Below are positions 4,111-49,027 of a DNA stretch of 51,582 bases, in pieces. Origin of the DNA: a virus; IMG/VR virus record IMGVR_UViG_3300025525_000040, positions 1 through 51,582 of that record; one strand, given 5' to 3'. A model generated the notes under the pieces. The model was not told where the DNA came from. It made no database searches and worked only from the letters and a program-made list of their open reading frames with translations. Position 1 is the stretch's first letter; every line of letters begins with the position of its first letter. A program made the position numbers and the translations under genes.

Positions 4111-4347
<237 letters not shown>

Positions 4348-4467
4348 ATCTGACTTACATGCTAGAACACATAGTTTATTTGTTCTATGTTGGGAGAGCG
4401 AGGCACATCTGTTTTTTTTGTTTTCTGCGCCAACAATCCACGTGCTCTGTCAACCACGAAGATTTAT
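4348..4467. other. Phage left-end non-coding segment
   Basis: No gene is visible. It holds a small dyad ACATAG(tttatttgtt)CTATGT (4368-4389), a run of eight T (4411-4418) and AT-rich DNA before the leftward gene at 4468. Integrase arm-binding sites would be expected here, but I cannot identify them. Confidence 0.4.
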
Positions 4468-9773: not shown

Positions 9774-11537
9774 ATGGCAGAAGAATTGACATTGGTACCG
9801 CTGGAGAAAATCTGGCCGAACCCATACCAGCCGCGCAGCGTGCGCAACGCAGAGAAGGTGGAGAGTTTGGCGCGCTCGATTGCGGCGGACCGGCTTTTGC
9901 AGCCGCCGATGGCGCGGCAGGTTGCCGATGAGTTTCAGTTGGCATTTGGGCATACGCGCTTCGAGGCGTTTGTTTTCCTGAACGAGCAGACAGTGGAGTG
10001 GTTTACGGAAAACGGCTGGCTGGACAAATATGGCTATTACAGCCAAATGCCGCTGGTGGTGGCCGACCTGAGCGATGAGGACATGTTCCGCTATGCCAAC
10101 GCAGAGAATGCCCAGCGCGAGGATATCGGGCCTATCGACGAGGCCAAGTCTATGAAGCGGGCGCTGGTCGAATTCAAGTACACCAGCCGCCAGGTGGGCG
10201 AGTTGTTTGGCAAGAGCGAATCGACGGTGCGCGGCGCTATCCGGCTGCTCGACCTGCCGGAGTCGCTGCAGGCGCAGGTCAACTCGGGCGAAATGACAGT
10301 TGGCGCGGCGCGCAAGATTTTGAGCGTGCGCCACCTGGTGGAGAACATGGAGGAGCTGGTTACTTCACGGTTTTCGACAGCCCGCACGGTGGATGAGATT
10401 GTGCAGGACAAGATTGACAACCAGGCCATCAAACTGCACACGATGTGGCAACGATGGAACAGCGACGAGAAGCCCAGGGGCGGGCCTGACCTGTGGGAAT
10501 TGTCGTGGACGTACAAAGTTCCGCCCTACCACATGCCGACCGAAAAAGAGTTTTTGAAGATTTGGAACGGGCCAAAAGAAATTAGCGGTCGCGCGGTGGA
10601 AGACCTGGCGAATGATTTTTACCGGAGCATTGCGACCATACAGCCGCACTTGCGAAAAACCTGGGAGCAGCTGTATGCCGAAAACAAGCCGGAGGTGTAC
10701 CCGGTGCTCGACCTGGTGAAGCAGTTGGCCGAGCCGCCCGCCTGCACGGCCTGCCAGTTTTACGTGCGCAACGATGGGAATCACCTGTGCGCGTTGAAGG
10801 CCTGCTGGGAGCGGAAATTTGCCGAGTTTACGCGCAAGGAACTGGAAGCGCTCTCGAAGAAAACGGGCATCCCGGTGTACCGGCCAGGGGAAGACGGGCG
10901 GACGGTGATACGCCTGGAGTCGTCGCACGACGCCGAGGAAAGGCGCTGGTTCGAGGCCCGGCACGAGGGGCTGCGCTTGCAGGTGCGGCAGTCGTCGTGG
11001 AAACATGCGCACACCGACTCGCTGAATGTGTGCGTTTTGATGACCGGCGCGGAGGCCGAACGGATAAAAGCGGCGGAGGCTAGAGCGAAGAAGGAAAACA
11101 GCCAGGAGGATTACAGCGCCCGGTGGAAACGCGATAACCAAAAGCGGGACCTTTACGTAGGAGCGGTACAGCGTTTTGTGCTCGAGCAGGTCTGCCCGAC
11201 CTTTGCCAGCGCGCTGGAGGGGAAGCTGGCTGGCGCGCTGCTGGATGACCTGGCGCGGCGGACGCACTACACCCTGCCCGATAAGATGCCGCCGGCTCAA
11301 AAGGTGGTCTACAACCTGGTTTGGTCGATGCACGCAGTAGATGGCGAAGCGAGACAAACGGATGCCCCCTTACCGGTCGGGTACGCCGCGAAACATTTAC
11401 AGGGCGTGGCCAAGGCCTGGGGCGTGAAACTGCCGCCCGACTGGATGGATATCGCGGCACGCTATGAGCCGGATTTGAGCGAATTCCCCGAGTGCTGCGT
11501 TTCCACAGAAACGCCGGTGGAGGAGGTGGCGGCATGA
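9774..11537 (+). CDS. Large ParB-like nuclease-domain protein with HTH and Cys cluster
   Basis: 587 residues. The N-terminus is a ParB/Spo0J domain: LEKIWPNPYQPR (10-21), a GHTR version of the nucleotide-binding GxRR box (59-62) and ENAQRED (111-117). A helix-turn-helix follows (SRQVGELFGKSESTVRGAIRLLDLP, 138-162), as in ParB. Beyond that it departs from partition proteins: a long C-terminal region with a CxxC...C...C cluster (about 323-345, CTACQFYV, HLCALKACW) that probably binds zinc. ParB proteins bind CTP and DNA and spread or cleave; no ParA partner is present, so a DNA-binding, replication or regulatory role is more likely than partition. Confidence 0.8.
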   Translation: MAEELTLVPLEKIWPNPYQPRSVRNAEKVESLARSIAADRLLQPPMARQVADEFQLAFGHTRFEAFVFLNEQTVEWFTENGWLDKYGYYSQMPLVVADLSDEDMFRYANAENAQREDIGPIDEAKSMKRALVEFKYTSRQVGELFGKSESTVRGAIRLLDLPESLQAQVNSGEMTVGAARKILSVRHLVENMEELVTSRFSTARTVDEIVQDKIDNQAIKLHTMWQRWNSDEKPRGGPDLWELSWTYKVPPYHMPTEKEFLKIWNGPKEISGRAVEDLANDFYRSIATIQPHLRKTWEQLYAENKPEVYPVLDLVKQLAEPPACTACQFYVRNDGNHLCALKACWERKFAEFTRKELEALSKKTGIPVYRPGEDGRTVIRLESSHDAEERRWFEARHEGLRLQVRQSSWKHAHTDSLNVCVLMTGAEAERIKAAEARAKKENSQEDYSARWKRDNQKRDLYVGAVQRFVLEQVCPTFASALEGKLAGALLDDLARRTHYTLPDKMPPAQKVVYNLVWSMHAVDGEARQTDAPLPVGYAAKHLQGVAKAWGVKLPPDWMDIAARYEPDLSEFPECCVSTETPVEEVAA

Positions 11538-12817: not shown

Positions 12818-12997
12818 ATGCGCGAGTGGTTGAAGCCAGTTTTATTGATACACGGTTTGCCTGTTGTGATGGGCGTTGTGCTGTTTGGGCTCGTGACCTG
12901 GGAGGGTCGGATTATGGAAAACATTATTTATATCGCTGTTGTCGTCGGGCTGGTGGTTGTGTTCGACTGGTGGCGCAACATTTGGAGGACGCGATGA
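12818..12997 (+). CDS. Small two-span membrane protein
   Basis: 59 residues: two hydrophobic segments (PVLLIHGLPVVMGVVLFGLV and ENIIYIAVVVGLVVVFDWW) and a basic end. AGGAGG lies just before the ATG. It overlaps the next membrane protein gene by four bases and is the first of five consecutive membrane-linked genes leading to the FtsK-like ATPase. Confidence 0.6.
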   Translation: MREWLKPVLLIHGLPVVMGVVLFGLVTWEGRIMENIIYIAVVVGLVVVFDWWRNIWRTR

Positions 12998-13497
12998 AGG
13001 CCTGGATTGTATTTGTACTGGTGGCGGCGCTGGCCCTGGGCGGCATATTTGCCATGTCATCGGTCTCGGCTTCGTATGCAATGGCCCGGCAAGCACAGGC
13101 TGCCATCGAGGCCAGTCGGGCGACGCAGGTGGTCGCGGCAAGCAACCTGGTGCTGGCCCTGGCGCTGCTGGTGTTGGGGATGCTGGCCGGGGCGGTCATT
13201 GGCGTCGTGGTTTTTATGCGTTTGCGGTCTTCAGCGCCGCGCCATTCCACCCAAGGCACAGGAACGCGATGGGTATCGGGCCCGAATGCAGGCTGGAGAC
13301 TGGATGATAGCCCGGCTGGGATGGTCAACAGCCTGCGCTCAGGGGTCGACCCGCAGCAGGTGATGCTGACCGCGTTGGCGATTCATTTTTTGCAGAATAT
13401 GCCGACGCAGGCCCACCAGCCTGTTGGGTTGCTGGCGGAACGCCCCGATGCGCTGGATGAGGAAGATTGGAGCGACGTATGGGACGGCTTGCAGTAG
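12994..13497 (+). CDS. Two-span membrane protein with cytoplasmic tail
   Basis: 167 residues. First span 3-25 (WIVFVLVAALALGGIFAM), an Ala-rich extracytoplasmic helix (ARQAQAAIEASRATQVVAAS), second span 50-75 (LVLALALLVLGMLAGAVIGVVVFM), then a soluble tail of about 90 residues. GGAGG site. The end overlaps the lipoprotein gene by 19 bases. The hairpin-like topology with a short helical outer loop is a typical structural membrane partner, but no family is recognised. Confidence 0.6.
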   Translation: MKAWIVFVLVAALALGGIFAMSSVSASYAMARQAQAAIEASRATQVVAASNLVLALALLVLGMLAGAVIGVVVFMRLRSSAPRHSTQGTGTRWVSGPNAGWRLDDSPAGMVNSLRSGVDPQQVMLTALAIHFLQNMPTQAHQPVGLLAERPDALDEEDWSDVWDGLQ

Positions 13498-14423
13498 TTC
13501 TGCTGGTGGTTGTGTTGCTGGCCGGATGCGCCCCGGATGCCGGTTCGAACGCTGTGCGGGATGCGCTGGCGACGCCGACGCCGGGTGAGTTGGAGCAGGC
13601 GCTGGCCAACATCCAGGCGCAGGCGACGTTGGATTCCATCCAGGCGACATCGCAGGTGATTTCGGCGGGCCTGACCCTGACTGCGGGAGCGCCGACCCAG
13701 CGGGCGGCTGAAACGGCAACCGGGCAGGCCTGGATAATGCAATCCTGGACGGCCACAGCGGCGGCAGATGCCACCCAGCGGGCCGACAGGGCCACCGGCA
13801 CAGCCGGGGCCTGGACGCCAACCCCCGCGCCGACCGCGACGCCCGATTACACGGCGACAGTGGATGCGGCGGCTGCCGCGGCCCTGGCGACTACGTATCA
13901 CGGCCAGGCCGTGAGCGTGGAACTGGCTATCAGCCGCGAGCGCATGATGAACGAGGTACAGGCGGTCGTGCCCTGGGTAGTCTTGGTTGTGGTGGTGGTG
14001 TTCGTCCTGGCCGTGGCCTGGCGCTGGGCCAGGGTGCGGCCTATCCGACGGGATGAGCGCGGCGACGCCCCGCTGCTGGTGGTGGACGGGGCGGTATATG
14101 ACGCCGACCGCAATCCTGAGCCGGTGATGAACGTTCACAAGGGTAAACCGCATATCCCGATGCTGACGGACCGGGCGATGCAGGCGGCCACGACCGGGCG
14201 CGACCAGCTGGTCGACCTGGCGACCCGCGGCCAGAACGGGCCAGGCAGGCCGCCCAGGAAGGCCGTAGCGGCGCAAATGGGGCAGTTGCCGGGGCCTGTG
14301 CAAGAAATAAGGGTTTTGCGGCCCGAGGAGGCGCGCCCGCTGCTTGGGGATGTGATTCCGAGCATTGCGCGAGACGCCATCGATGGCGAATTGGGGCACG
14401 AGGAGGTGCCCGGAAATGACTAA
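13479..14423 (+). CDS. Phage-encoded lipoprotein with internal membrane span
   Basis: 314 residues from the ATG at 13479 (GGAG just upstream; an in-frame TTG lies 12 bases earlier). Signal peptide with lipobox LLAGC, lipidated cysteine at 17. An Ala/Thr/Gln-rich exported region (about 20-155, with TPTPAPTATP) follows, then a strong membrane span (WVVLVVVVVFVLAVAWRW, about 166-183) and a roughly 130-residue basic cytoplasmic domain. A lipoprotein that crosses back into the cytoplasm is unusual. It overlaps the FtsK-like gene by eight bases, suggesting that its cytoplasmic part contacts the ATPase. Confidence 0.75.
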   Translation: MGRLAVVLLVVVLLAGCAPDAGSNAVRDALATPTPGELEQALANIQAQATLDSIQATSQVISAGLTLTAGAPTQRAAETATGQAWIMQSWTATAAADATQRADRATGTAGAWTPTPAPTATPDYTATVDAAAAAALATTYHGQAVSVELAISRERMMNEVQAVVPWVVLVVVVVFVLAVAWRWARVRPIRRDERGDAPLLVVDGAVYDADRNPEPVMNVHKGKPHIPMLTDRAMQAATTGRDQLVDLATRGQNGPGRPPRKAVAAQMGQLPGPVQEIRVLRPEEARPLLGDVIPSIARDAIDGELGHEEVPGND

Positions 14424-15759
14424 CGTAACGATATCGCACCGCTATATGCGGATGGCTGAGAGCGTGCGGGCGACGTTGTCTCAGTCGCTGGCGCGCCGTC
14501 GATTGGCTCCGGTGTTCAGCGACTTCTATATCACCCACCTGGCCGGGATGACCCCGTTGATTGCCGTGCTCGACACGGCCAAAATCGGCGACCACGGCCC
14601 GTATACGCGGCCCGAGTTGCTGCACCAGTTGAGCACGGATTTGGGCGGGATGCCGGTGTATCTGTCGAACCACAGCGGCATTCGGTATGTGGTGCTTTTG
14701 TCACAGTTGCCGAAATTGCCTAGGCGGGTGGATTTGCCGCCGGATGTGCCGCGCGGCAAGCTGGCCCTGGGTGTGCGTTTCACCGGGCAGCCGGTGGTGG
14801 TGGATTGGGAAAGCCTGAAGCACCTGGCCGTGTTGGGCGCGACCGGTTCGGGTAAATCGGTTTTCCTGCAAAGCCTGGCCTTGCAGGCCTGCCGGGATGA
14901 GATGAGGCTGCTGGTTTCGGACATTGACCAGTTGACCTTTGGGATGCTGGACGGCAGCCCGCACCTGGGCGCGCCGGTGGCGCGGTCGGAGCAGGAAGCG
15001 TTTGGGCTGGTGGAGCGGGCCATCGGTGAGTTCGAGACGCGCGCGGCGTTGTTTGTGAACCGGCCTGAGCGACCGCAAAAACTGTCGGAGTACAACGCGC
15101 TGCCGGGCGTGGAGCCGCTGCCGCGCATCCTGGTCATCCTGGATGAGGCGTCGAGCGTTTTGACGGCCCTGGGCGGGGCGCGGGGCGAGATGGGGAAGTC
15201 GCTGGCGACCCTGGGCTATCGCGGGCGTAAGTTCGGCGTTCACTTTGTTTTTGCGGCCCAGGAGTTTACCAAGGCCGTGATGGGGCCGGTGCGCGACCAG
15301 GTGGGCCTGAGCGTGTGTTTTCGGGTGGCTTCGGGCCAGATGGCGGCGATTATGGGCTGCAAGGGTGCGGAGCGCATTCCGGAGAGCCGACCGGGCCTGG
15401 CGATTAGCAACCGGCATGGGCCGATGCAGGCCTATTTTGTAGAGGCTGCCAGCCTGGGCGACTCGGAGCGGGCGCTGCCAGTGATTTCGGATGACGAGCG
15501 GGTGCTTGCCGAGCGGGCATGGTTCGAAGCGGATGGCAAGGTGAGCCGCGAGGCCCTGATGGGCTTGGGCCTGGGTCAGCAGGAGGCGCGGCGATTGCAG
15601 GCTGACTGGAGGATGCGCGGTTGGGCCCGGAACGACCCGGCGCGGGCAAATGGGCTGTATATAACACCTAAATTGGTGAAATTGCTAACCAACCGACCAA
15701 CCCAACCAACCCTGACCAGCCCTGACCAACCGGCAACCAGCCCAACCAGCCCATTTTGA
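14416..15759 (+). CDS. FtsK/SpoIIIE-type DNA translocase ATPase
   Basis: 447 residues. Walker A GATGSGKS (141-148), Walker B RILVILDEAS (237-246), and the FtsK-typical segment around DIDQLTFG (169-176) and GRKFGVHFVFAAQE. The N-terminal 120 residues form a separate domain, without transmembrane spans. The C-terminus looks like a winged helix, as in FtsK gamma (MGLGLGQQEARRLQADWRMRGW). FtsK family motors pump double-stranded DNA; smaller relatives drive plasmid and actinomycete ICE transfer. Context (lipoprotein and membrane proteins on both sides) points to a membrane-anchored complex. It is not the packaging motor, since a terminase is present. Confidence 0.85.
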   Translation: MTNVTISHRYMRMAESVRATLSQSLARRRLAPVFSDFYITHLAGMTPLIAVLDTAKIGDHGPYTRPELLHQLSTDLGGMPVYLSNHSGIRYVVLLSQLPKLPRRVDLPPDVPRGKLALGVRFTGQPVVVDWESLKHLAVLGATGSGKSVFLQSLALQACRDEMRLLVSDIDQLTFGMLDGSPHLGAPVARSEQEAFGLVERAIGEFETRAALFVNRPERPQKLSEYNALPGVEPLPRILVILDEASSVLTALGGARGEMGKSLATLGYRGRKFGVHFVFAAQEFTKAVMGPVRDQVGLSVCFRVASGQMAAIMGCKGAERIPESRPGLAISNRHGPMQAYFVEAASLGDSERALPVISDDERVLAERAWFEADGKVSREALMGLGLGQQEARRLQADWRMRGWARNDPARANGLYITPKLVKLLTNRPTQPTLTSPDQPATSPTSPF

Positions 15760-15851
15760 CGCTGATTTGGGCGGCGACCGGGCTTGACTTACCGGGCCTA
15801 ATCCATAACCTGTGTGCTGCCTTTGCGGGTTGCAGGGGCAAGGAGATGCTG

Positions 15852-16559
15852 ATGTTCGAAAAGCGATTACTTGATTTTGTTGCAGGAATAAGCCCCTGGT
15901 TGGCTCCTTTGGTGCCGACCTATTTTGCGGCCTACAACGCCTATTACTACCTTGCGAAAGGTAAGGAGTGGTGGGACGTGGGTGCAGTGATAGTTGTGGC
16001 GCTGGTGGTCGAAACCATCGGCCTGGCCGGAGTGCATACGGCCATCCAGTTTTGGAACTGGAACCGGACGCGGTTGAAGTCTGACGATGCTGCGCCTATG
16101 GGTTTGGCAATCCTGGCGGTGGTGGCCTATGTGGTCATCATTATCCTGGTGAACGGCCTGTTGGATTGGTATGCCATTGCCGACCCCGACTCGCTGCCTT
16201 ACGTAAAAATTGTGGCAGTGGGTCTTCTATCACTTCTGGCGCTCAACTCTGCGTTGATTGTGGCACTGCGGGCAGGGCAGGCCGACAGGGAATTTCGGGC
16301 GGAAACTGCCCGGCAAGAGCGGAAAGACGCTCGGAAAGATGGCCGGAAAGTTGCCGACGACGAAGGGAAAGTTTCCGGAAACTTTCCGGCAGACTGGCGG
16401 AAGGTTCGGCCATTTATTTCTGACGGGGAGGTGGTCGAAATTGCGAAGATGAGCACACGGCAAATTCAGGAAAAATATCACTTACCGCAAGAGAAGACTG
16501 CGCGCAACTGGCGCGGTTATGCGACCCGGGAAGTAGAGCAGAAAGATGAGGTGCGTTGA
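15852..16559 (+). CDS. Multi-span membrane protein with HTH-like tail
   Basis: 235 residues from MFEKRLL (AAGGAG six bases ahead). Four membrane spans lie in the first 130 residues. A Lys/Arg/Asp-rich connector (ARQERKDARKDGRKVADDEG) follows and then a helix-turn-helix-like segment (TRQIQEKYHLPQEKTARNW). The layout suggests a membrane-bound DNA-binding protein next to the translocase. The connector is encoded by repeated CGGAAAG units and a perfect 22-bp palindrome (16366-16387). Confidence 0.65.
   Translation: MFEKRLLDFVAGISPWLAPLVPTYFAAYNAYYYLAKGKEWWDVGAVIVVALVVETIGLAGVHTAIQFWNWNRTRLKSDDAAPMGLAILAVVAYVVIIILVNGLLDWYAIADPDSLPYVKIVAVGLLSLLALNSALIVALRAGQADREFRAETARQERKDARKDGRKVADDEGKVSGNFPADWRKVRPFISDGEVVEIAKMSTRQIQEKYHLPQEKTARNWRGYATREVEQKDEVR
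16320..16390. repeat. CGGAAAG repeats and a 22-bp perfect palindrome
   Basis: GGAAAG recurs at about 16321, 16333, 16345 and 16366. The last starts a perfect palindrome at 16366-16387 (half-site GGAAAGTTTCC followed by its reverse complement). It lies about 170 bases before the replication initiator gene. Confidence 0.6.
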
Positions 16560-17788
16560 TGAATACTCGGATGATGTTCACCCGGTCGTTGAAAGGTTTG
16601 CCATCGACAATATTTGTGGTCTTTTTGATGACCCGGCGCATGATGACCACGTCGGAGTTGGTGATATGGGCAGACAGCAACGATGACGACGTGCGCAAGG
16701 CTCTGCGCGTGCTGGAAGGCCTGCAGGTGGTTTCGGTCGATGTTCGTGAGCGCGGCGAAAAGTGGTACGGGTTGGCCACGGGATATCAAGATGCGCTGCC
16801 AGGCATGTTCGATGCGCTGGAAGGCGAACAAGGAGCGTTGATGTCAGGTTCCGATTTTTCGGATTCTGGCAGGGCCGACAGCGAAAAACAACAACGAAAC
16901 ATCGTTTTCGACGTCGAAAACGGGTCAGAATCCGATAAATCGGATTCTGAAGACTCTAGACTAGAGAGTCTAGAGTCTTCTAGTTCTTTAAAGACCTTAG
17001 AAGATTCTAACTACCTAGACTCTGGGGCAGGTTCCGATTTTTCGGAACCTGAATTGGCCGAAAAGACCACGCCGGAGAGTTTGTGCAGGGAGGCGTACCG
17101 ACTGCTCGGGAAGTCGGTGCGATGCGATGATGTGGTCAGGGCCAGGCCGATACGCGAGATATTGGCTTGGATGGCGCAGGGGTACCAATCGCGGGATGAC
17201 TTGATGTCACCGGTGGGATTTGTCTATCGGGCCATTCGACGCGAACTCAAAAAGGGCAAAAAGGTCGACGCAAACAAGCGGCCGGACCCGCAATACTTGA
17301 GCAATCCATTTGAATTTTTGACGTATGACTACCTGGCCGCGGTCGGCCTGGCCGAATATCATGTGCAGCGGTGCCCGCGGTGCGGCGAGACGGGGGGCAG
17401 GCATGTGGTGAGTTGCCTGAATGGGGTTGATTATGAGCGGGTGACAGAGACTGAAACGCGCATCAGCATTGACCCGTCCGCGGTGATTGAGGGGGATTGG
17501 CCTGAAACTACCGAGAGCCTGGCCGCAGTGAGTGTTTGGGGCAGTCTGCTCGAGCATTATGCAGAATCACTGCCCCGAGCCGCCTACGAAACCTGGGTCA
17601 AGGATGTGCGCCTACAGGGGTATCGGGACGGGATTGTTTATTTGGCCGCGCGGAATGCGTTTGCGGTCGATTGGGTGAGTGAGCGACTCGGCGAGAGCAT
17701 TCAGGCACATTTTGCAGAGCAGTTGGATGGGTTTCGAGACGTGAAATTTGTTCTTCGGGCTGTTTCTGTGGAAACGGAGGATGACTGA
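16559..17788 (+). CDS. Replication initiator-like protein with DnaA-N-type domain
   Basis: 409 residues. N-terminus: a winged-helix-like segment (TTSELVIWADSNDDDVRKALRVLEGLQVVSV). Residues about 95-170 are a Ser/Asp/Glu-rich linker encoded by the iteron cluster. A middle domain holds CPRCGETGGRHVVSC. The C-terminal 90 residues match the DnaA N-terminal domain pattern (WGSLLEHYAESLPRAAYETW... IVYLAARNAFAVDWV). Phage initiators of the lambda O/DnaA-N type bind their origin inside their own gene and recruit helicase. ATG overlaps the previous stop; an upstream TTG is less likely. No helicase or loader gene is recognisable nearby, so host DnaB would be used. Confidence 0.75.
   Translation: MNTRMMFTRSLKGLPSTIFVVFLMTRRMMTTSELVIWADSNDDDVRKALRVLEGLQVVSVDVRERGEKWYGLATGYQDALPGMFDALEGEQGALMSGSDFSDSGRADSEKQQRNIVFDVENGSESDKSDSEDSRLESLESSSSLKTLEDSNYLDSGAGSDFSEPELAEKTTPESLCREAYRLLGKSVRCDDVVRARPIREILAWMAQGYQSRDDLMSPVGFVYRAIRRELKKGKKVDANKRPDPQYLSNPFEFLTYDYLAAVGLAEYHVQRCPRCGETGGRHVVSCLNGVDYERVTETETRISIDPSAVIEGDWPETTESLAAVSVWGSLLEHYAESLPRAAYETWVKDVRLQGYRDGIVYLAARNAFAVDWVSERLGESIQAHFAEQLDGFRDVKFVLRAVSVETEDD
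16845..17051. other. Putative replication origin: palindromic iterons in the initiator gene
   Basis: Three 24-bp elements of the form CAGRWTCCGAT-WWW-TCGGAWYCTG lie at 16845-16868, 16926-16949 and 17028-17051; the second and third are perfect or near-perfect palindromes. Between them are a perfect 20-bp palindrome (16903-16922, half-site CGTTTTCGAC) and a 14-bp-arm inverted repeat (16949-16962 / 16967-16980, GAAGACTCTAGACT). An AT-richer stretch (16981-17015) follows. The arrangement resembles an origin embedded in a phage initiator gene. Confidence 0.65.
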
Positions 17789-20392: not shown

Positions 20393-20878
20393 ATGCGAGG
20401 ACGAAAACCAAAACCTACCACCGTGAAATTGCTCGCAGGCAATCCTGGAAAGCGAGCAATCAACCATGCAGAGCCTCGTCCAACAATAGTTTTTCCCTCG
20501 GCTCCAGAACATTTGGGCGATGATGAGAAAAACAAATGGTTGGCCGTTGTTCAGGAACTGTACACTCTCGGTCTCGTTACAACTGTTGACAAAGATGCGC
20601 TTGCCATGTATTGCGTGATTTATGTTCGCTGGTTGAAGGCCGAAAGGATGGTGCGCGAAAAAGGCGAAATTATTAAAACGGCAGCCGGGAACATTATTCA
20701 GAATCCCTACTTGGCAATAGCAAATCGCGCACTTGACCAGTTGAACAAGCTTGGTGCTGAGTTTGGAATGACACCTAGTAGCCGCTCACGAGTCAAAGTT
20801 GAACTACCCAACGCGGAGAGCGAACTGGAAGAAATGCTTTTTGGAAAAAGAATAAGGGTTTCAAATTATGACCGATGA
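20393..20878 (+). CDS. Terminase small subunit, P27 family (copy A)
   Basis: 161 residues opening RGRKPKPTTVKLLAGNPGKRA, the P27/TerS N-terminal signature, and ending with MTPSSRSR near the C-terminus. TerS recognises the packaging site and loads TerL. The gene is separated from TerL by two methyltransferases and a second small subunit at 23437 that shares the same N-terminal and GMTPSSRSR blocks. Which one serves packaging is uncertain; copy B sits directly before TerL. Confidence 0.85.
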   Translation: MRGRKPKPTTVKLLAGNPGKRAINHAEPRPTIVFPSAPEHLGDDEKNKWLAVVQELYTLGLVTTVDKDALAMYCVIYVRWLKAERMVREKGEIIKTAAGNIIQNPYLAIANRALDQLNKLGAEFGMTPSSRSRVKVELPNAESELEEMLFGKRIRVSNYDR

Positions 20879-22196
20879 CCTCACTTATATAGCGGAAGGC
20901 TTAAGAAGTCTGGCCGTCCCTATTGACGATTTGCATATCGACCCGGCCAACGCGCGGAAAGGTCACGCGCTGGACAGGATAGCCTCTTCTTTGAAAGCCT
21001 ATGGACAGCGCAAACCCATTATTGCCAATCGCCTGCAAAACGGCAAAATCGAGGCAGGCAATGGAACTTGGCTTGCAGCCAAGCGGATAGGTTGGAGCCA
21101 CATTGCGGTTGTTTTTGTTGAAGATGACCCGGCCACCGCAGCCGCTTATGGAATCGCGGACAACCGCCTGAGTGAGTTGAGCGAGTGGGACCTCGATGCG
21201 CTTGGGGCTTTGCTGCCAACCGTTGATGACCTGTTTACGGGTTTCACGGATGGTGAAATACGTGATGTCCTGGGAGAGCGGGGAGATGGGCTGATGGTGG
21301 ACCCAGGGCCGCAGGATGACCATCTGCTCGAGCTTTGCGAAAAATGGCAAACTGCTTCCGACCAGGCCTGGCAGCTCGGCAAGCACACATTAGTTTGCGC
21401 AGATACGATGCGCTTGGACATTGGGGCCTTGCAGTGGGGCGGAGTAGCGGCGCTGGCAGTTACATCTCCGCCTTATTGGGTCGGTAAAGATTATGAGCGC
21501 GAGAAAAGTGTGGAAGAGATAGAGAAGTTTATCGCCGAGGTTGCCCGAGTCATTGCATCCGTGGTGCGCGTTGACGAGTCACGTATTGTGATTAATACCG
21601 GAACAGGTTTCACAACGTCGTTTGATAAACGCAAGAAGCGCCAGGTGTTATTGCTGATAGATAAGTGGGCCAATGCTTTCTACCCGCATGGCTGGAATTT
21701 GCGCCATGTAAGGCACTGGCTGAAGGAAGGCCAGGTTGCAGCTTTATCGCCCAAGAGTGATTTGATTGACCAGCACTCGGAGTTTATTGGCGCATTTGAA
21801 CATGATGACGGCTTGCCGTTGAGCTTTACCGATTCCTTGAACGAGCAAGACATACTATCGCTTGAAACTTTCTACAATCGAGACGGTAAGAGCCGAGGGC
21901 AGGGAAAAACAAACCAGAAGTGGGCGCTGCGCTCGTATTGGAATGACATCAAGGGCACAGCTGGCGCGCATGGCCATGTGGCCGCATTTCCGTTGGAAAT
22001 CCCTGCACGGCATATCTTGCTTTATACCCGGCCAGACGAGGTTGTTTTTGACCCTTTCAGCGGGTCTGGAACGTCTTTGATTGCTTGTGAAATTCTAAAC
22101 CGAGTCTGCTGGGCTGCTGAAATTGACCCCCACTATGTAGCCGCGACCCTGGAACGATGGCACCTGATGACGGGGAAGATGCCTGAAAGGAAGTAG
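20868..22196 (+). CDS. ParB-like domain fused to DNA methyltransferase, N4-cytosine type motif
   Basis: 442 residues. Residues 10-110 are a ParB/sulfiredoxin-like domain (DPANARKGH, GQRKPIIANRLQNGKIEAGNGTW). The catalytic part is beta-class: motif IV TSPPYW (199-204) comes first and motif I FDPFSGSGT (394-402) near the end. TSPPYW is the form typical of N4-cytosine (or some C5-neighbour) enzymes. No restriction nuclease is adjacent, so it is an orphan, probably protecting phage DNA against host restriction. It overlaps terminase copy A by 11 bases. Confidence 0.85.
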   Translation: MTDDLTYIAEGLRSLAVPIDDLHIDPANARKGHALDRIASSLKAYGQRKPIIANRLQNGKIEAGNGTWLAAKRIGWSHIAVVFVEDDPATAAAYGIADNRLSELSEWDLDALGALLPTVDDLFTGFTDGEIRDVLGERGDGLMVDPGPQDDHLLELCEKWQTASDQAWQLGKHTLVCADTMRLDIGALQWGGVAALAVTSPPYWVGKDYEREKSVEEIEKFIAEVARVIASVVRVDESRIVINTGTGFTTSFDKRKKRQVLLLIDKWANAFYPHGWNLRHVRHWLKEGQVAALSPKSDLIDQHSEFIGAFEHDDGLPLSFTDSLNEQDILSLETFYNRDGKSRGQGKTNQKWALRSYWNDIKGTAGAHGHVAAFPLEIPARHILLYTRPDEVVFDPFSGSGTSLIACEILNRVCWAAEIDPHYVAATLERWHLMTGKMPERK

Positions 22197-22201
22197 CCCC
22201 A

Positions 22202-23440
22202 ATGACTGACCTGTCCTATATTACTGAATCTTTGAGACCCCTGGCAGTACCCGTTGCGAGCCTGCATGAAGACCCGGCCAATGCACGCATTGGGCATGAT
22301 GTAGAGCGAATCGCGGGCAGCCTGCGACAATATGGACAACGTAAACCCATTGTTGTGAACCGGCTACAGAACGGAAAGATTGAGGCTGGAAATGGCACCT
22401 ATCGCGCGGCTTTGCAATTGGGGTGGAGTCACATCGCTGTTGTTTTTGTGGATGATGACGCAGCCACCGCGGCGGCATTTGGGATTGCAGATAACCGCGT
22501 GGGAGAGTTTAGCCGTTGGGATGAAGATGTTTTGCGAGAACTGACCGGGAGCCTGGGCGACCTGTTTACCGGCTTTGAACCAGCTGAACTCGACGAGTTG
22601 GTTGGCGTTTCTACAGAAACGAAGCCGGTCCTTGACGACCCGGGGCCAGAACTTGAGCGCGCCGATGAGCTGCAGGCCAAGTGGCAAGTGCAGCCGGGCC
22701 AGATGTGGCGGCTGGGTAAGCAGCGCATCATGTGCGGCGATTCTACCCAGCAGGCCGATGTGAAGCGGTTGATGGGGAATGACCTCGCGCAGATGATATG
22801 GAGCGACCCGCCCTGGAATGTCAATTACGGCGGCGGAGTCGATGTCGAAAATGCACAGGGTTACAAGGTACGCACGATGAACAACGATAACCTGGGCAAA
22901 GACTTCCCGCTTTTTGTAGAGAAGTTTACCAAACGGATGTGGGAGTTTTGTGTACCCGGTGCGCCGATCTACCTGGTGATGGGCTCACAGGAGTGGCCGG
23001 TGATAGACCAACAATTGCGTGAGCGTGGTTTTCACTGGTCATCTACCATCGTATGGGTCAAAGACCAGCTGGTGCTCTCCAGGAAGGATTACCACACCCA
23101 ATTTGAGCCTATGTGGTATGGCTGGCGCGGGGATGCCGCCCGGTTGGTCGAGGTGGTGGACCGCAAGCAGTCTGATGTATGGTGCATCGACCGGCCCAAG
23201 AAAAGCGAAGACCACCCTACCCAGAAGCCGCTTGAGCTGGTCGAGCGGTCTATATCCAACTCCAGCAAGCCCGGGGCAGTTGTGCTTGACCTATTTTCCG
23301 GTTCTGGAACAACCCTGATGGCCTGTGAGCGACTGGGGCGGGTATGCCGCGCAATGGACAATGACCCCAAGTATGTGGCAGTTGGCCTTGAGCGCTGGTC
23401 AACCGCTACCGGCCAAAGTCCAGAATTGGAGGAGCCGTGA
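22202..23440 (+). CDS. ParB-like domain fused to DNA methyltransferase, N6-adenine type motif
   Basis: 412 residues. The first 110 residues are closely similar to the preceding protein (DPANARIGH, RQYGQRKPIVVNRLQNGK, SHIAVVFVDDD), but the catalytic half differs: motif IV SDPPWN (201-206), typical of N6-adenine methylases, and motif I LDLFSGSGTT (362-371). Target-recognition segments between them share no obvious similarity with copy one. Likely an orphan DNA methylase against restriction or for packaging control. Its stop overlaps the GTG start of terminase copy B. Confidence 0.88.
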   Translation: MTDLSYITESLRPLAVPVASLHEDPANARIGHDVERIAGSLRQYGQRKPIVVNRLQNGKIEAGNGTYRAALQLGWSHIAVVFVDDDAATAAAFGIADNRVGEFSRWDEDVLRELTGSLGDLFTGFEPAELDELVGVSTETKPVLDDPGPELERADELQAKWQVQPGQMWRLGKQRIMCGDSTQQADVKRLMGNDLAQMIWSDPPWNVNYGGGVDVENAQGYKVRTMNNDNLGKDFPLFVEKFTKRMWEFCVPGAPIYLVMGSQEWPVIDQQLRERGFHWSSTIVWVKDQLVLSRKDYHTQFEPMWYGWRGDAARLVEVVDRKQSDVWCIDRPKKSEDHPTQKPLELVERSISNSSKPGAVVLDLFSGSGTTLMACERLGRVCRAMDNDPKYVAVGLERWSTATGQSPELEEP

Positions 23441-23916
23441 GGGGGAGAAAGCCAAAGCCCACTGAAGTTAAAAAACTAGAAGGCAACCCTGGAAAACGGG
23501 CACTGAACAAAAAAGAGCCAAAGCCAGAGAGTGTGGTGCCACGCTGCCCGTCACACCTGCCTGATGTTGCAAAGGCAGAATGGCGGCGCATTACCAAGGA
23601 GCTGCATGCCCTCGGGCTGTTGAGCCGGATTGACCGGGCCGCGTTGGTTGCCTATTGCCAGGCCTGGTCTGATTACATCGAGGCGGATGAAGAGATAACG
23701 GTGCAGGGTGCCGTTATTGTCTCTGAAAAGGGCGGCATGTACCAAAACCCGTGGGTTGGTATCAAAAACAGCGCCCTGAACCGGTTGGTCAAGATTGCTG
23801 CGGAATTCGGCATGACGCCGTCGAGCCGGTCGCGCGTGTCATCAGAAAAACCAAGCGATGACGATGAAATTGCCCGTATGTTGTTCGGCGACAAAGTAAA
23901 GGTCAACAAGCAGTGA
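23437..23916 (+). CDS. Terminase small subunit, P27 family (copy B)
   Basis: 159 residues from a GTG overlapping the upstream stop. Opens RGRKPKPTEVKKLEGNPGKRALN and carries GMTPSSRSRV, like copy A, but the rest is divergent. It is directly followed by TerL with one base between, which is the normal TerS-TerL order, so this is the likelier working small subunit. Confidence 0.88.
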   Translation: MRGRKPKPTEVKKLEGNPGKRALNKKEPKPESVVPRCPSHLPDVAKAEWRRITKELHALGLLSRIDRAALVAYCQAWSDYIEADEEITVQGAVIVSEKGGMYQNPWVGIKNSALNRLVKIAAEFGMTPSSRSRVSSEKPSDDDEIARMLFGDKVKVNKQ

Positions 23917-23917
23917 A

Positions 23918-25618
23918 ATGGCGAAGATGAAAGCGGTACTTCATCCGGCAGAACAATATGCACACGATGTCGTGGCGGGCAAAATCGTGGCTTGCCGCTG
24001 GGTTCGCCTGGCGTGTGAGCGCCATTTACACGACTTAGCGCATGGCCATGAACGTGGGTTGTGGTTCGACCGGGATGCCGCTGAGCGCGTTTTGCGTTTT
24101 AAGGGGATATTAAAGCATTCCAAAGGCAAGTGGGCTGGGCAAAACTTAGTATTAGAGCCGTGGCAGCAGTTCAAGACTTGGGCGATGTTTGGGTGGATGA
24201 ACTCAGACGGCACACGCCGGTTTCGCAGCGCGTACATCGAAGTGGCACGTAAGAATGGCAAGTCTACCGACAGCGCCGGTGATGGCTTATATCTCGCTTT
24301 TGCTGACGGCGAAGCCGGGGCGGAGGTTTATTCAGCGGCCACGAAACGCGACCAGGCACGCATTGTGCACCAGGAGGCCATTCGGATGGTGCGCAAGAAC
24401 CCGCTGCTCAAGAAATATATCCGAATTTATAAGGATAATTTGAGCATCGAGCAGACGGCCAGCAAGTACGAGCCGCTGGGTGGTGACTCGGATAGTCTTG
24501 ATGGGCTCAACGTTCACGGCGCTGTCGTCGACGAGCTGCATGCTCATAAAAGCCGCGAGACGCTGGAGTTGCTTGAAACGGCCACCGGCTCGCGCGAGCA
24601 GCCGCTGATTATTATGATAACGACGGCGGGCATGGACCGCCAAAGCGTGTGCTATGAAAAGCATGAATACACGCGCAAGGTGCTCGAGGGTTGGCGAGAC
24701 GATTCGTACGTGGATGATTCGTGGTTTGGCATTATTTATACGCTGGATGAGGGCGATGACTGGCGAGATGAGTCTGTTTGGGTGAAGTCGAACCCCAACC
24801 TGGGTGTGTCAAAAAAATGGGAAGACATGCGCATAAAGGCCAAGCGGGCCGGGGAAATGGCCGCAGCCTTGAATAATTTTTTGCGGCGCGAACTGAACGT
24901 GTGGACGCAGGGCGAAGTAAAGTGGATGAACATGGATTCCTGGCGCGCCTGTGGCATTGAAAATATCCCAGCCCTAGAATTGCCAGAAAAGATGAAAGGC
25001 CAGGTGGCTTATGCTGGGTTGGACTTGTCGAGCACAGACGATATAACAGCCTGGGTTATGGTTTTTGCAGGTGATGACGGAGAGTATTATGTGGTTTGCC
25101 GCTTCTGGATACCAGAAGACAATATGAGCATTCGTACCCGCGACCAGGGGGTCAAATACGAGGAGTGGGTGAAGGCCGGGTTCATGGAGGCCACGCCAGG
25201 GAATGTTATTGATTATGACTGGATATTTGAGCAGATAGAAAAGGATGCCGATATGTTCGATATTGACCAGGGTGCTTTTGACCGTTGGGGCGCTGCGCGT
25301 GTGGTGCAGGTGCTCGAAAACAAAGGCATGACCATGCTGCCGTTTGGGCAAGGGTATGCTTCGATGTCGCCACCGATGAAAGAGCTGGAGCGGTTGATTC
25401 TTGCGAAAAAAATCAAGCACGGCAACAACCCGGTATTGACCTGGATGATGGATAACGTAGTCGCGAGACTGGACCCGGCCGGCAACATTAAGCCGGACAA
25501 GTCTCGAAGCCGCGAAAAAATAGACGGAGTGGTGGCGTTGATTATGGCCCTAGACCTTGCCTTGCGCCATCCGGAGCAGAAATCAGTCTATGAATCGCGC
25601 GGTATTCGCACTTTGTAG
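23918..25618 (+). CDS. terL: Terminase large subunit, HK97-like
   Basis: 566 residues. ATPase: adenine-side region LEPWQQF (79-85), Walker A-like ARKNGKST (110-117), Walker B AVVDELH (202-208), coupling motif TTAG (about 236-239). Nuclease half: AGLDLSSTDDITA and a later DIDQGAFDRWGA, with acidic metal-binding residues as in Terminase_1. The length is normal. It drives ATP-powered packaging and cuts concatemeric DNA; the HNH protein and P27 small subunit point to cos-type ends. Confidence 0.95.
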   Translation: MAKMKAVLHPAEQYAHDVVAGKIVACRWVRLACERHLHDLAHGHERGLWFDRDAAERVLRFKGILKHSKGKWAGQNLVLEPWQQFKTWAMFGWMNSDGTRRFRSAYIEVARKNGKSTDSAGDGLYLAFADGEAGAEVYSAATKRDQARIVHQEAIRMVRKNPLLKKYIRIYKDNLSIEQTASKYEPLGGDSDSLDGLNVHGAVVDELHAHKSRETLELLETATGSREQPLIIMITTAGMDRQSVCYEKHEYTRKVLEGWRDDSYVDDSWFGIIYTLDEGDDWRDESVWVKSNPNLGVSKKWEDMRIKAKRAGEMAAALNNFLRRELNVWTQGEVKWMNMDSWRACGIENIPALELPEKMKGQVAYAGLDLSSTDDITAWVMVFAGDDGEYYVVCRFWIPEDNMSIRTRDQGVKYEEWVKAGFMEATPGNVIDYDWIFEQIEKDADMFDIDQGAFDRWGAARVVQVLENKGMTMLPFGQGYASMSPPMKELERLILAKKIKHGNNPVLTWMMDNVVARLDPAGNIKPDKSRSREKIDGVVALIMALDLALRHPEQKSVYESRGIRTL

Positions 25619-42393: not shown

Positions 42394-42447
<54 letters not shown>

Positions 42448-42512: not shown

Positions 42513-42881
42513 TTGAATAAATCTTTGATTGTTGGATGTCTGTGATTGAAAGTATCGCAATTTGAATATACAAGGCAAAAAATTAAGTAAACTTGTTCGA
42601 CTTTATATCAGCGGTCTTTAGATAAAAACTGAACATTGGTGAAGGTTGCTCGAAAAAATTTGAAAACATGTCATCCAATCCGAGGGGATGCGTGTGTGGA
42701 ACTTTAACAACCCCAAGCAAAATGAAAGGTGAGCAACAATCACCAAGCGTCAAAGCGATATTGGGGTATTTAAGCGTTATCAGGATCCTAAATCTAATTG
42801 TATTGATCTGGCGCACCAACCCGAATTTCATTCTGACTTAGTTTGTCTGCCTGGCCGCTCACAAACGAAAGGATACTTACC
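42513..42881. other. Non-coding, AT-rich region before the second recombinase
   Basis: Nothing convincing. A leftward 82-residue frame (42583-42831) has no ribosome site and no recognisable content. The stretch is far more AT-rich than the prophage, supporting a different origin from it. Confidence 0.4.
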
Positions 42882-43859
42882 ATGAAAATAACAACCGCAA
42901 AAACCGGCTTCTTGCTATCACTAAGAGCGCGAGGTTACGCGCCGGCAACCATTGAACTATACCGTTATGTGCTGGACGCGCTCGCTGACTACCTGGACGA
43001 TCCAGAAGTCAATAAAATCCGCCTGACGGACCTTGAACGCTATTTTGTCTACTTGCGTGATGAATATAAACCGACAAGAAAAAGTGGGGATTCATCGCCA
43101 CTTTCTGGGAGTACTCTGCAAAACCATTGGAAAGGTATTCGGGCATTTTTTGCATGGGCGGTGGATGAATTGCGTCTAAAATCACGCCCGGATTTGCGAT
43201 TAAAACTACCGAAAAATAATCCTAAACTGATTCGCCCTCTCAAGCAGGATGAAATCAAATCGTTACTCATTGCTGCTGAGCGAACACAGGAGGCAGTCCC
43301 AAGTAATCGTCGCCCGTTTACCATGCGTCGGCCAACTGCCGACCGCGATTCTGCTATCTTGCTTATGCTGCTCGATACCGGCGTCCGCGTTGGGGAATTG
43401 GCTCGTATGACTGTTGATGATGTAAATCTAAAAACAGGTGAAGTCATTGTCACACCCTTCGGAGAGAGTGGTCGAAAAACCAAGGGACGTGCGGTTTTTA
43501 TAGGCAAATCAACAATGCGGGTACTTTGGCGATATTTGGCAAATCGGGGCAATCCGGAACCCGAAGAACCTTTATTGCTTTCCAGACATGGACATCCGAT
43601 GAGTCGCAATTCCATTAGATTATTATTGGCCGATATGGGTAAGAGGGCCGGAGTGGCAAATGTTCATCCTCATCGATTTCGGCATACATTTGCAATTGAA
43701 TTTTTACGCAATGATGGAGATGTGTTTAGCTTACAGCGAATTTTAGGGCATGCTGATTTAGAAACCGTGAAAAAGTATCTTGAACTGGCGCAAGCGGACA
43801 CGCAAAACGCACATAAACGGGCATCACCGGCTGACCGCTGGAATCTATCCCGAAAGTAA
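42882..43859 (+). CDS. Second tyrosine recombinase (XerC/D-like)
   Basis: 325 residues from MKITTAKTG (GAAAGGA upstream; a TTG start lies 39 bases earlier). SAM-like core-binding domain about 5-100. Catalytic residues R169 (GVRVGEL), H264 and R267 (HPHRFRH), H290 (LGHADLET) and Y299 (VKKYLEL). Distinct from the phage integrase and outside its attachment site. Resembles the integrases/resolvases of integrative and plasmid-like elements. It ends 40 bases before a shared terminator. Confidence 0.88.
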   Translation: MKITTAKTGFLLSLRARGYAPATIELYRYVLDALADYLDDPEVNKIRLTDLERYFVYLRDEYKPTRKSGDSSPLSGSTLQNHWKGIRAFFAWAVDELRLKSRPDLRLKLPKNNPKLIRPLKQDEIKSLLIAAERTQEAVPSNRRPFTMRRPTADRDSAILLMLLDTGVRVGELARMTVDDVNLKTGEVIVTPFGESGRKTKGRAVFIGKSTMRVLWRYLANRGNPEPEEPLLLSRHGHPMSRNSIRLLLADMGKRAGVANVHPHRFRHTFAIEFLRNDGDVFSLQRILGHADLETVKKYLELAQADTQNAHKRASPADRWNLSRK

Positions 43860-43897
43860 ATAATCAGCCCAACTTCACCAGAACAATCAATATCAAC

Positions 43898-43931
43898 AAA
43901 AAAAGCGAGGCTTTTCGGCCTCGCTTTTTTT
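43898..43931. terminator. Bidirectional intrinsic terminator
   Basis: A7-GCGAGGC (43898-43911), loop TTTTCG, GCCTCGC-T7 (43918-43931). It serves both the rightward recombinase gene and the leftward helicase gene, whose stop is at 43934. Confidence 0.9.
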
Positions 43932-43933
43932 GA

Positions 43934-46900
43934 TTAACGCTTGCGCTTACCTCCTTTCTTGTGCAGCAAGTGGGCCGGTACAGCGTCGCCGAACATGGAG
44001 GCCTGCATCACATCGGATGAGTCATGCGAGACCGTCGCCAATTCGCGGCTGGACTGCCATGAAGCCTGGCTAACAGCCTGCATGAAATCCAATTGCGCCT
44101 GACTGCGGGTAACTTCCTGGCGGGCCTGCTCGATAACCTCCGGCGTAACCGGGATGGCGGGTTCGGGCAGTTCCACTTCGATGGGCTGCTGGTGTATCGC
44201 GTTGATGCGGGCCAGGGCGGATTCGAAGATGTCAATCCAGCCATCGTCGTTGTCCACAATGGACAGGTCGATGTCGTCGTCTTCGCCATCCTTCTTTTCG
44301 GCTTGCTTGCGTGTCCATGCGTCGAGTTCGACGGTGAGAGCAGCCAGGGCCGCTTGTGTCTCTTCGTACTCGCGCTCATGCTGCCAGGTCTTCGGGATTT
44401 CAACTTCCAGTGAAGCCAGGTCGGTGTGGAGACGGGCCAGGTGAGAGCGGGCGTCTGCCAGTTTCTTGTCCAGCGCGCGCAGGGCGGCATCCAGACTGAT
44501 GAACAGCCCTTTATCGGTGCTTTCCACGTTGGCAAGCAGGAGTTCATCGTTGGGCAGCATGAACCCGATGGCGGTTTCAACTTCCACGAAGGTTCCGCGT
44601 GTTTTGCGTTGCGTGAACCCGGCCAGTTTTACGCCGCGATACTCGCCAAGGACGGTCAGGTCCCGAGGTACCAGGGCCGCTTTGCGCAGGGCCTTGCCCG
44701 CCGATTCGCGTTCCGTGTAGGTCGTCCCGTTGATGGTTGCCGAGAAGTCCTTGCCGGTCGCTTCGCGCTGGGCGATGCTTCCCTCCAGCGTGCGGATTTC
44801 GGCTTCGACCTGCGGGATGCGGGATTCGATGAAAGCCTTGTCGCGCACATGACCGCTGCGGGTGCGCAGCCACTCCGCGCGCAAAGCGTCCAGGCGAATC
44901 AAGGCGGCGTCCAACTCGACCTTTTTCAACATGAGTGGATTACCGGAAGCGATGGCCTTGATGGCCGCGTAGGATGCGACTTCATCGCCGATGTCGTCGG
45001 CGTCGCGCTGGACAATCCCGCGTTCAAGGTCTTTGATGAAACCCAGTTTGGTTTCCAGCGTCTGCCAACTAAACCCGTCGAAACTACCGGGCGTGACGTA
45101 GACAAACTCGAAGACCTCACCATAGCGGTTGCCGGGACGCTCCATGCGTCCGGTGCGCTGGATCAGGCCATCCGGTTTCCAGGTGGGGGTTAGGTGATGG
45201 ATAGCCAGCATACGCTCATGCACGTTGACACCCACGCCCATCTTCTCGGACGACGCAATCACCACCCGCTTGCGACCTTCGTTGACCGCTTTGAACAGGG
45301 CGTTTTTTTGCTCGGTCGTTTTGGCATCGTGGGCAAAGGCGATTTCGGCCTCCGGGATGCCGCGCCGCGCGAGGCGGCGCTTGATTTGGGCGTAGATGTC
45401 GGTCGTCAGGGCGAGTTCGTCTCCGGTCAGCGCTTCTGCGTCGTCGCCGGTTGCGTCATCTTTACGGGCCTGTTTTGCCTTCGGGGTGGCCAGGTCGCAG
45501 AAGACCAGCTGCGCGCCGCGCATGGGTGTACTCATGCGGTGGATGGCGGCTACGGTCTCGACCAACCTGTCCACTTTCGGCATTGGCCCGTTCGGGTTGC
45601 TGGCGAGTACCAGGCTGACGTCCAGGGCGCATTTGCGTCCATCGGACGAGATGACAAGCATGTTGTCCTCGGATGACTTGACCCCGCCAGACCTGATGGC
45701 TTCGGCGCGCGTGCCGAGGGAACGAACGTAATCGCGCAAGCGCAAGTCACGTTGGCACTTGACCTTAATCAGCCCGCCCGCGAACTTTTTGGGCATGTCG
45801 GGGATGTCGCCTTCCTGGATGGCATACGCATCTGTGAACTGGAAGTAGACTGCGAACAGGTCGCGCAGATTTTTGAATCGCCGGAAGCGGGTGTTCATGC
45901 GAAAGCCGGAACCGTCCGGGGTCATCTCGACACCCGGCTCCGCGATGGCGTATTGATAGGCCCAAGCGTCAAAATGAGCCAGGCCCATTTCAATCAATAC
46001 ACGCTCCTGCATGTAGCGCTGCATGGTGTAGGCTTCGGCCAGGGTGTTCGAGACCGGCGTGCCAGTCAGGGCGACCACCTTGCCGCCGCGCTGGATCGAC
46101 CAGCGGGTCTTCATATACATATCGAAGGCGCGCTGGGATTCCGAGTTGGGCAGACCGGCGATGCGGTTGATGCGGGTTTTGAAGAACAGATTTTTGTAAG
46201 CGTGGAATTCATCTACAACCAGCATGTCCACGCCGAGCATCTCGTAGGTGATGGTGTCAGGAGAATCCTTGGCCATGCGCTTCTTCTCGAACAAACGCGC
46301 CTCGAAGGCGCGCTTGGAACGTTCGATGCTCTTGATGGCCGCCGCAGCGGACTCCTTCTTGTCGGACTGGGCTTTGAGTTCCCACAGGTATTTCTCCAGT
46401 TCGGCCACCTGGCCTTCGATGAAGTCGATTTCGGCCTCGACGCTCATGGGGAGCAGTTTGAAAACCGAATACGGGACGAGCACCAGGTCCCAATCGCCAG
46501 TGGCGATACGCGATAAAAACGTGCCGCGTTTGGACTTGGACAGGTCTCCTGCCAGGACGGTCAAGGTGCGGGCGCTGGGATAGGCGCGTAAAACCTCGTT
46601 TTCCCACTGCCCGATGACCTGGTTGGGGACAACCGCCATGACCTTGCGGGCCAGACCGAGCCGCCGGGCTTCCATCGCCGCGACAATCGCGGTCAGGGTC
46701 TTCCCGGCGCCGACTTGATGCCATAGGAGCGAGGTCTGGTATTGCAGGATGCGCCAGGCGCCGTTGCGCTGGTTCTTGCGCAGGCTGATATCGGTGTTCA
46801 GTCCGGGGAAAGTCAGGTGGGAGCCGTCTGGCTTTGGTTGCCGCCAGACATTGAAGGATTTGTTGTAGAGCGATACCAGATGCTCGGTGCGTTCTACATC

Positions 46901-49000: not shown

Positions 49001-49027
49001 GTTTTTCACCTCCTGGTGGAATCAAAA

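Follow-up and report, generated by a model that had tools for sequence, protein, structure and literature searches.

The DNA region at positions 12818–16559 of the window (the complete 51,582-nucleotide stretch of IMG/VR virus record IMGVR_UViG_3300025525_000040) contains five ORFs, all on the + strand, which encode (i) a 59-aa membrane protein with two hydrophobic stretches (12818–12997), (ii) a 167-aa membrane protein with two spans (12994–13497), (iii) a 314-aa lipoprotein with a lipobox ending at C17 (13479–14423), (iv) a 447-aa FtsK-type ATPase (14416–15759) and (v) a multi-span membrane protein with a helix-turn-helix (HTH)-like tail, judged as such from its sequence (15852–16559). An earlier note on this DNA had described these as consecutive overlapping genes, and the ORFs themselves, with the spans and the lipobox assigned to them, were all found. 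The overlap holds for the first four; the ORF of the last gene opens at 15756, but its start is probably the ATG at 15852, which is preceded by a Shine-Dalgarno sequence (15841–15845) and leaves a gap of approximately 90 bp after ftsK.

The lipoprotein comprises a helical outer region, a span at approximately residues 164–184 and a basic cytoplasmic tail. Its lipid cysteine is invariant in the alignment of the family, and the structure prediction for this protein was poor (pLDDT 57). In the two-span protein (P0002) the motif RWxxGPNAxW follows the second span and is kept in the cytoplasmic tail of its homologs (L082, L084, L087, L096, L135 and L136); it is a candidate contact site.

The ATPase (P0005; PF01580, E=8.8e-19) has intact Walker A (GATGSGKS) and Walker B (ILVILDEA) motifs. 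Its predicted structure (pLDDT 82) consists of a beta-domain, a RecA-type motor and a C-terminal winged helix (approximately residues 355–425) with a helix at 388–400, in agreement with the winged-helix tail noticed earlier. The top structural match, obtained with Foldseek and VIA-align, was TcpA of plasmid pCW3 (Z 28.4, residues 19–351), with which FtsK motors tie (Z ~28), followed by EccC and HerA. Hydropathy analysis detected no membrane span in the FtsK proteins of the family, the spans being located in the two proteins encoded upstream. The best PHROG match was an FtsK/SpoIIIE-like “moron” family (1.6e-29).

The record as a whole represents a siphovirus-like prophage. A 43-bp direct repeat resembling a tRNA 3′ end is present at 4308–4350 (putative attL) and 42395–42437 (putative attR), and an integrase gene adjoins the right copy, which together delimit a prophage of 38.1 kb. 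No intact tRNA gene was detected at either att side, and searches of the window with Rfam and ARAGORN were negative for RNA genes. A 76-bp tandem repeat (4154–4326; 2.3 copies, 92% matches) adjoins attL and shares its start with the att sequence. Beyond attR, at 42843–49009, there are genes for a second tyrosine recombinase and a 1691-aa helicase/methyltransferase, representing either a second mobile element or a defence-like gene adjoining the prophage.

Upstream, in the same operon as the membrane and ftsK genes, is a gene for a ParB-like protein (9774–11537, + strand; PF17762, 3.8e-17; PF02195, 2.4e-10). The downstream neighbor of the unit encodes a probable replication initiator with a DnaA_N domain (16559–17788, + strand; PF11638, 1.2e-10). 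Three palindromic iterons (e.g. CAGGTTCCGATTTTTCGGAACCTG) lie within the linker region of this gene, at 16845–16868, 16926–16949 and 17028–17051, and probably constitute the replication origin, comparable to the lambda origin within gene O. Intragenic iterons were also observed in other phages (L082, 12257–12405; L017, 1402–1503; L003, 4658–4790), their position being constant and their sequence variable. An ordinary large terminase subunit is encoded at 23918–25618 (+ strand). The region 20393–25618 contains interleaved duplicated genes upstream of that for TerL, kept in relatives: two for related small TerS-like proteins (20393 and 23437) and two for related ParB-methyltransferase proteins (20868 and 22202).

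Conservation and distribution of the unit

The order of these genes was examined in related loci, with genes called by our own ORF script and several of the loci coming from metagenome bins. A strict script was applied to the 28 loci of the family in which 1.15 kb or more of sequence precedes ftsK, and it placed a gene for a lipoprotein with an internal span immediately 5′ of ftsK in 23. In the other five the lipoprotein was recognized by eye, the script having failed on frame breaks, a weak span or an atypical lipobox. Thus, homologs in the form of a lone ftsK gene, which the earlier note had named as evidence against its reading, were not encountered. The two-span gene lies 5′ of the lipoprotein gene in 18 of 19 loci. 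A tblastn search among the relatives with the 59-aa protein matched only the window's own copy, and the 4-span gene, a phage-specific neighbor of ftsK, is confined to phage-type loci. The five-gene arrangement therefore exceeds chance, and the part of it that is conserved is a unit of three genes encoding the two-span membrane protein, the lipoprotein with an internal span and the FtsK-type ATPase; the 59-aa and 4-span genes are outside this core. In the family-profile comparison, members scored above 160 bits and the other FtsK-type genes of the hosts below 90 bits, which separates the FtsK of the unit from the host's own copies.

In total, approximately 35 family members were identified. Some belong to Anaerolineae phages, the others to elements that carry integrase, primase and partition genes and in which no virion genes were detected. 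A terminase scan yielded 80 phage loci, in several of which the unit is likewise positioned 5′ of a probable replication initiator gene. Scans of viral contigs with the FtsK alone or the ParB-like protein alone recovered no relatives, and collections of phage and plasmid records gave only distant FtsK matches, none spanning 80% of the query. Scanning genome contigs with the FtsK alignment revealed 14 loci in Anaerolineae and Chloroflexi genomes (42–69% identity), including one in the isolate Anaerolinea thermolimosa. Genome searches recovered the family from 14 of the 251 genomes covered within the order and from 5 of 301 within the phylum, a patchy spread consistent with mobile elements.

Two groups of carriers can be distinguished. 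Phages with virion genes include the window, L082, L083, L084, L013, L023 and a prophage (G004:C17) that has many structural genes in common with the window. The second group consists of compact elements in which the unit is accompanied by genes for an actin-like ATPase and a small RHH-like protein (or ParA), and further along for a tyrosine recombinase, an AAA_25 protein and a primase. A Pfam scan of one such element (G002, L122) identified integrase, AAA_25, primase and actin-like domains and no relaxase, type IV secretion system (T4SS) or virion families; the remaining compact elements were inspected by eye and searched by tblastn with proteins of the phage. The search for long att repeats flanking the small elements found none, which leaves their ends undefined. 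The search for the module in other Chloroflexota elements, which the earlier note had proposed as a check, therefore did find the core unit in such Anaerolineae elements.

In some relatives the motor is missing. Two phages (L003, 1436–2786; L021, 1250–2618) and an element with ParM/ParR (L149, 1483–2788, minus strand, beside parM) carry a unit composed of a shorter lipoprotein and, in the ftsK slot, a membrane-anchored winged-helix protein. Profile comparison gave no support for homology between the winged helix of FtsK and this TM-winged-helix protein. The replacement of FtsK indicates that the motor is at times dispensable. The three-gene core, this motor-less variant and the repeat array described below go beyond what the earlier note had recognized.

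A direct-repeat array at the 3′ end of ftsK

In the window, seven direct repeats with the consensus RACCARCC form an array within the final codons of ftsK (15687–15751, + strand). The copies start at 15687, 15695, 15704, 15714, 15724, 15735 and 15744, i.e. with a spacing of 8-9-10-10-11-9. Arrays of this kind were first noticed at the ftsK 3′ ends of the window and L082. For 32 non-redundant family members the region from −110 to +70 of the ftsK stop codon was compared with 60 dinucleotide shuffles each, using 126 other gene ends from the same loci as controls. This analysis revealed a significant array at 24 of the 32 ftsK ends, compared to 1 of the 126 controls (Mann-Whitney p = 1.2e-14); eight members had no significant array at the threshold used.

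The copies occupy several reading frames, and in the L083 phage the array is on the opposite strand, which indicates that the signal resides in the DNA. The spacing 8-9-10-10/11 recurs among divergent members with differing core sequences. Outside the array the motif is almost absent from the elements, and it occurs in a single orientation; such clustering points to a single DNA site, unlike polar motifs of the KOPS type. The array is therefore a candidate clt-like address site for FtsK. In L003 and L021, the 3′ end of the gene that occupies the ftsK slot seemed by eye to carry an array, which was not significant. In a divergent FtsK subfamily, trinucleotide runs like CTACTACTAC precede and runs like GTAGTAGTAG follow the ftsK stop codon (L013, 3262; L022, 928; L023, 2853), and these too were not significant in the repeat test. 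A ParA-type element (L135, 9670–9939) contains seven 21-bp iterons, similar to TTGGCGCAGTTGACACCTATA, just 5′ of the unit; the heptamer TGACACC is shared with the clt repeat of pWTY27.

The core of the repeat was found to vary together with the start of the recognition helix of the FtsK winged helix: RER or PER/TER is paired with GTC, EW or DW with CTC, and GQxE with RAC or YAC. With motifs chosen by eye, and with correction for the divergence of the motor, repeat core and recognition helix were correlated (partial Mantel r=0.53, p=2e-4), and the best of 245 nine-residue windows of the protein was at residue 388. Since the motifs had been selected by eye, the test was rerun with fully automated motifs. 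The top windows were then at 381–388, and the mean partial r was 0.43 for windows 381–396 and approximately 0 for the N-terminal half and the motor. The entire winged-helix region correlates somewhat, including windows 422–424, whose residues are encoded by the array itself, and local linkage may add signal in the remaining winged helix; windows 397–412, which are closer to the array, score lower than 381–396.

A second potential reader, ParR, could be discriminated in ten elements with ParM/ParR. ParR of class alpha occurs with GTC arrays in L085, L087, L088 and L095 and with a CTC array in L091, while class beta occurs with GTC in L086 and L090 and with CTC in L092, L093 and L094. The array core thus tracks the FtsK helix in all ten elements and not the ParR class. 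Arrays also persist in the window, L083, L084, L145 and L129, where ParM/ParR are not present. The assignment of the array as the parC site of ParMR was rejected on these two grounds, the independence of the core from ParR class and the existence of arrays without ParM. The covariation suggests instead that the array is read by the C-terminal winged helix of FtsK, and the pairs RER–GTC, EW–CTC and GQxE–RAC would represent a candidate recognition code.

Proposed function and alternative readings

The small integrating elements of the same bacteria share the set of genes, so the unit probably moves or anchors the double-stranded DNA of its element at the envelope. This is in line with the earlier proposal of a membrane-linked DNA pump, for which the linkage of the core unit and the TcpA/FtsK fold of the motor now speak. 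The reading that we favor, at roughly even chances, is a dsDNA translocase anchored in the envelope and loading on an address array of its own, most likely for transfer from cell to cell. Gene linkage, motor type, the array and the helix–array covariation were computed here; from them we infer loading, anchoring and outward pumping as follows. The two-span protein, the lipoprotein and the FtsK ATPase would form the translocase. Soluble FtsK would load on its own replicon at the unique array of approximately 5–8 repeats through its winged helix, the number of sites being compatible with an FtsK hexamer. The lipoprotein and the two-span protein, with their spans and cytoplasmic tails, would hold FtsK at the membrane, as suggested by the constant linkage of the genes. 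FtsK could then pump excised or replicating element DNA across the envelope into a neighboring cell. Such a unit would give filamentous Anaerolineae a TraB/clt-like system for dsDNA transfer, serving both small integrating elements and temperate phages. Several observations weigh against this reading: the FtsK lacks a span, unlike TraB, FtsK-less relatives exist, partition genes are frequent neighbors, the lipoprotein model is poor and eight of the 32 members had no significant array.

The main rival is a DNA tether or segregation device, in which the complex would attach the extrachromosomal element to the envelope or septum and move or keep hold of its DNA, so that both daughters inherit it, the array acting in a centromere-like manner. 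We regard this as a possible but rather unlikely reading. It would account for the neighboring genes, which encode actin-like ParM and an RHH-like protein in L082, L085–L095 and L136, ParA in L096, L113, L137 and L138, and ParB-like proteins in the window and L083. The repeats of ParR-type centromeres are also spaced by approximately 10 bp. Furthermore, the motor-less version with its membrane-anchored winged-helix protein, found also beside ParM, suits a tether better than a pump, which is why segregation keeps an appreciable share of our estimate. However, the array is retained where ParM/ParR are missing and its sequence follows the FtsK helix rather than the ParR class, tethering needs no processive dsDNA motor with an outward-facing lipoprotein, and a prophage requires no partition while it is integrated.

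Chromosomal FtsK acts together with XerCD, and on this model the FtsK of the unit could drive dimer resolution or excision with the tyrosine recombinase of the element, which, in the plasmid-like elements, is encoded a few genes further downstream. This is improbable: the motif forms a single cluster instead of a polar, genome-wide KOPS-like series, the lipoprotein and the two-span partner would be unnecessary, and in the phages the recombinase gene is far away. A complex for entry exclusion, defence or host takeover built around an FtsK/HerA ATPase is very improbable. PHROGs files the nearest phage proteins under moron/host takeover, and in PADLOC the motor weakly matched SspH, mad8 and HerA; on the other hand, the lipoprotein and the two-span protein had no PADLOC match, the unit lacks a defence nuclease or effector partner, and a self-recognition array points to action on the element's own DNA. 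A DNA packaging motor, suggested by a weak match of the ATPase to the terminase-labelled phrog_2666 (5.4e-08), can practically be dismissed, as the earlier note had also judged, given that the phage has a separate canonical terminase (phrog_9, 2.5e-180), that the unit is present in elements in which no virion genes were found, and that the fold is nearest to TcpA/FtsK, with packaging ATPases absent near the top ranks of the viral structure library. A grouping of the ATPase with packaging motors, the other outcome that the earlier note had named as refuting, was not observed.

The favored reading, a translocase for transfer, has its closest parallel in the TraB/clt systems of Streptomyces, represented by AICEs such as pSAM2 and by the plasmids pIJ101, pSVH1 and pWTY27. 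TraB transfers dsDNA without a T4SS (PMC3218068), and its winged-helix domain reads 8-bp repeats (PMC3583192). The clt site can include the end of a tra gene and contains 7- to 9-bp direct repeats; that of pWTY27 spans 16 bp of traA plus 159 bp next to it and has direct repeats of 7 bp (PMC3583192). Both the Anaerolineae unit and these systems have filamentous hosts and an FtsK-type motor that ends in a winged helix and whose gene carries short direct repeats at its 3′ end. Activated-sludge Chloroflexota include many filamentous members (PMC6753630, PMC10746286), which, as in Streptomyces, would suit spread along filaments. The differences are that the unit has its spans in proteins other than the motor, including a lipoprotein, that its arrays are helically phased and class-specific, and that its neighbors include ParM/ParR or ParA. 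By analogy, the unit appears to resemble TraB/clt in its working, yet it stands outside that group, having a motor without spans and hosts of another phylum.

The likeness to FtsK-type ICEs pointed out earlier is supported and may extend from the motor to the elements themselves. The one element scanned with Pfam (L122) fits the AICE pattern, with an integrase and a replication gene and no relaxase or T4SS families detected, while the others were read by eye. A survey of Actinobacteria found AICEs only in Actinomycetales (PMC3218068); in contrast, the hosts here are Chloroflexota, tailed phages also carry the unit, and the window itself is a prophage with virion genes.

Other FtsK-type proteins are less close. 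TcpA of Clostridium plasmid pCW3 shares the N-terminal domain and motor fold (Z 28.4). It functions with a T4SS, while Pfam detected no relaxase or T4SS families in the L122 element; in the A. thermolimosa locus, genes for a T2SSE-type ATPase and a HerA-like protein lie approximately 13–20 kb away. The unit further differs in its lipoprotein partner and self-address array. Chromosomal FtsK/SpoIIIE shares the motor fold (Z ~28) and the C-terminal winged helix; it differs from the ATPase of the unit, which has no membrane spans and one clustered array in place of polar KOPS-like sites. Thermus TdtA, the donor ATPase of transjugation, is likewise of the FtsK/HerA family and serves DNA donation outside a T4SS, but it has no DNA-binding domain and adjoins NurA, and no lipoprotein or array is described for it (PMC5365140). 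No paper describing the unit was found among the open-licence papers searched.

FtsK-type dsDNA conjugation without a T4SS is established in Actinobacteria. We tentatively suggest, at somewhat less than even chances, that a tailed temperate phage with a working conjugation-like dsDNA apparatus of a new lineage spreads its genome along Chloroflexota filaments without virions, and that the small Anaerolineae elements are a non-actinobacterial counterpart of AICEs. If true, another filamentous phylum would have a second version that looks independent and is common to phages and small integrating elements, and FtsK-type movement of dsDNA would have arisen or spread more widely.

Several natural variants of the unit are at hand, and A. 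thermolimosa provides a named isolate as host. In the chromosome of this strain (L117, 12708–19993; L118, 1–3950), a HerA-like protein of 1091 aa, a secretion ATPase of the T2SSE type and membrane proteins are encoded approximately 10–20 kb from the unit, with masked stretches close by.
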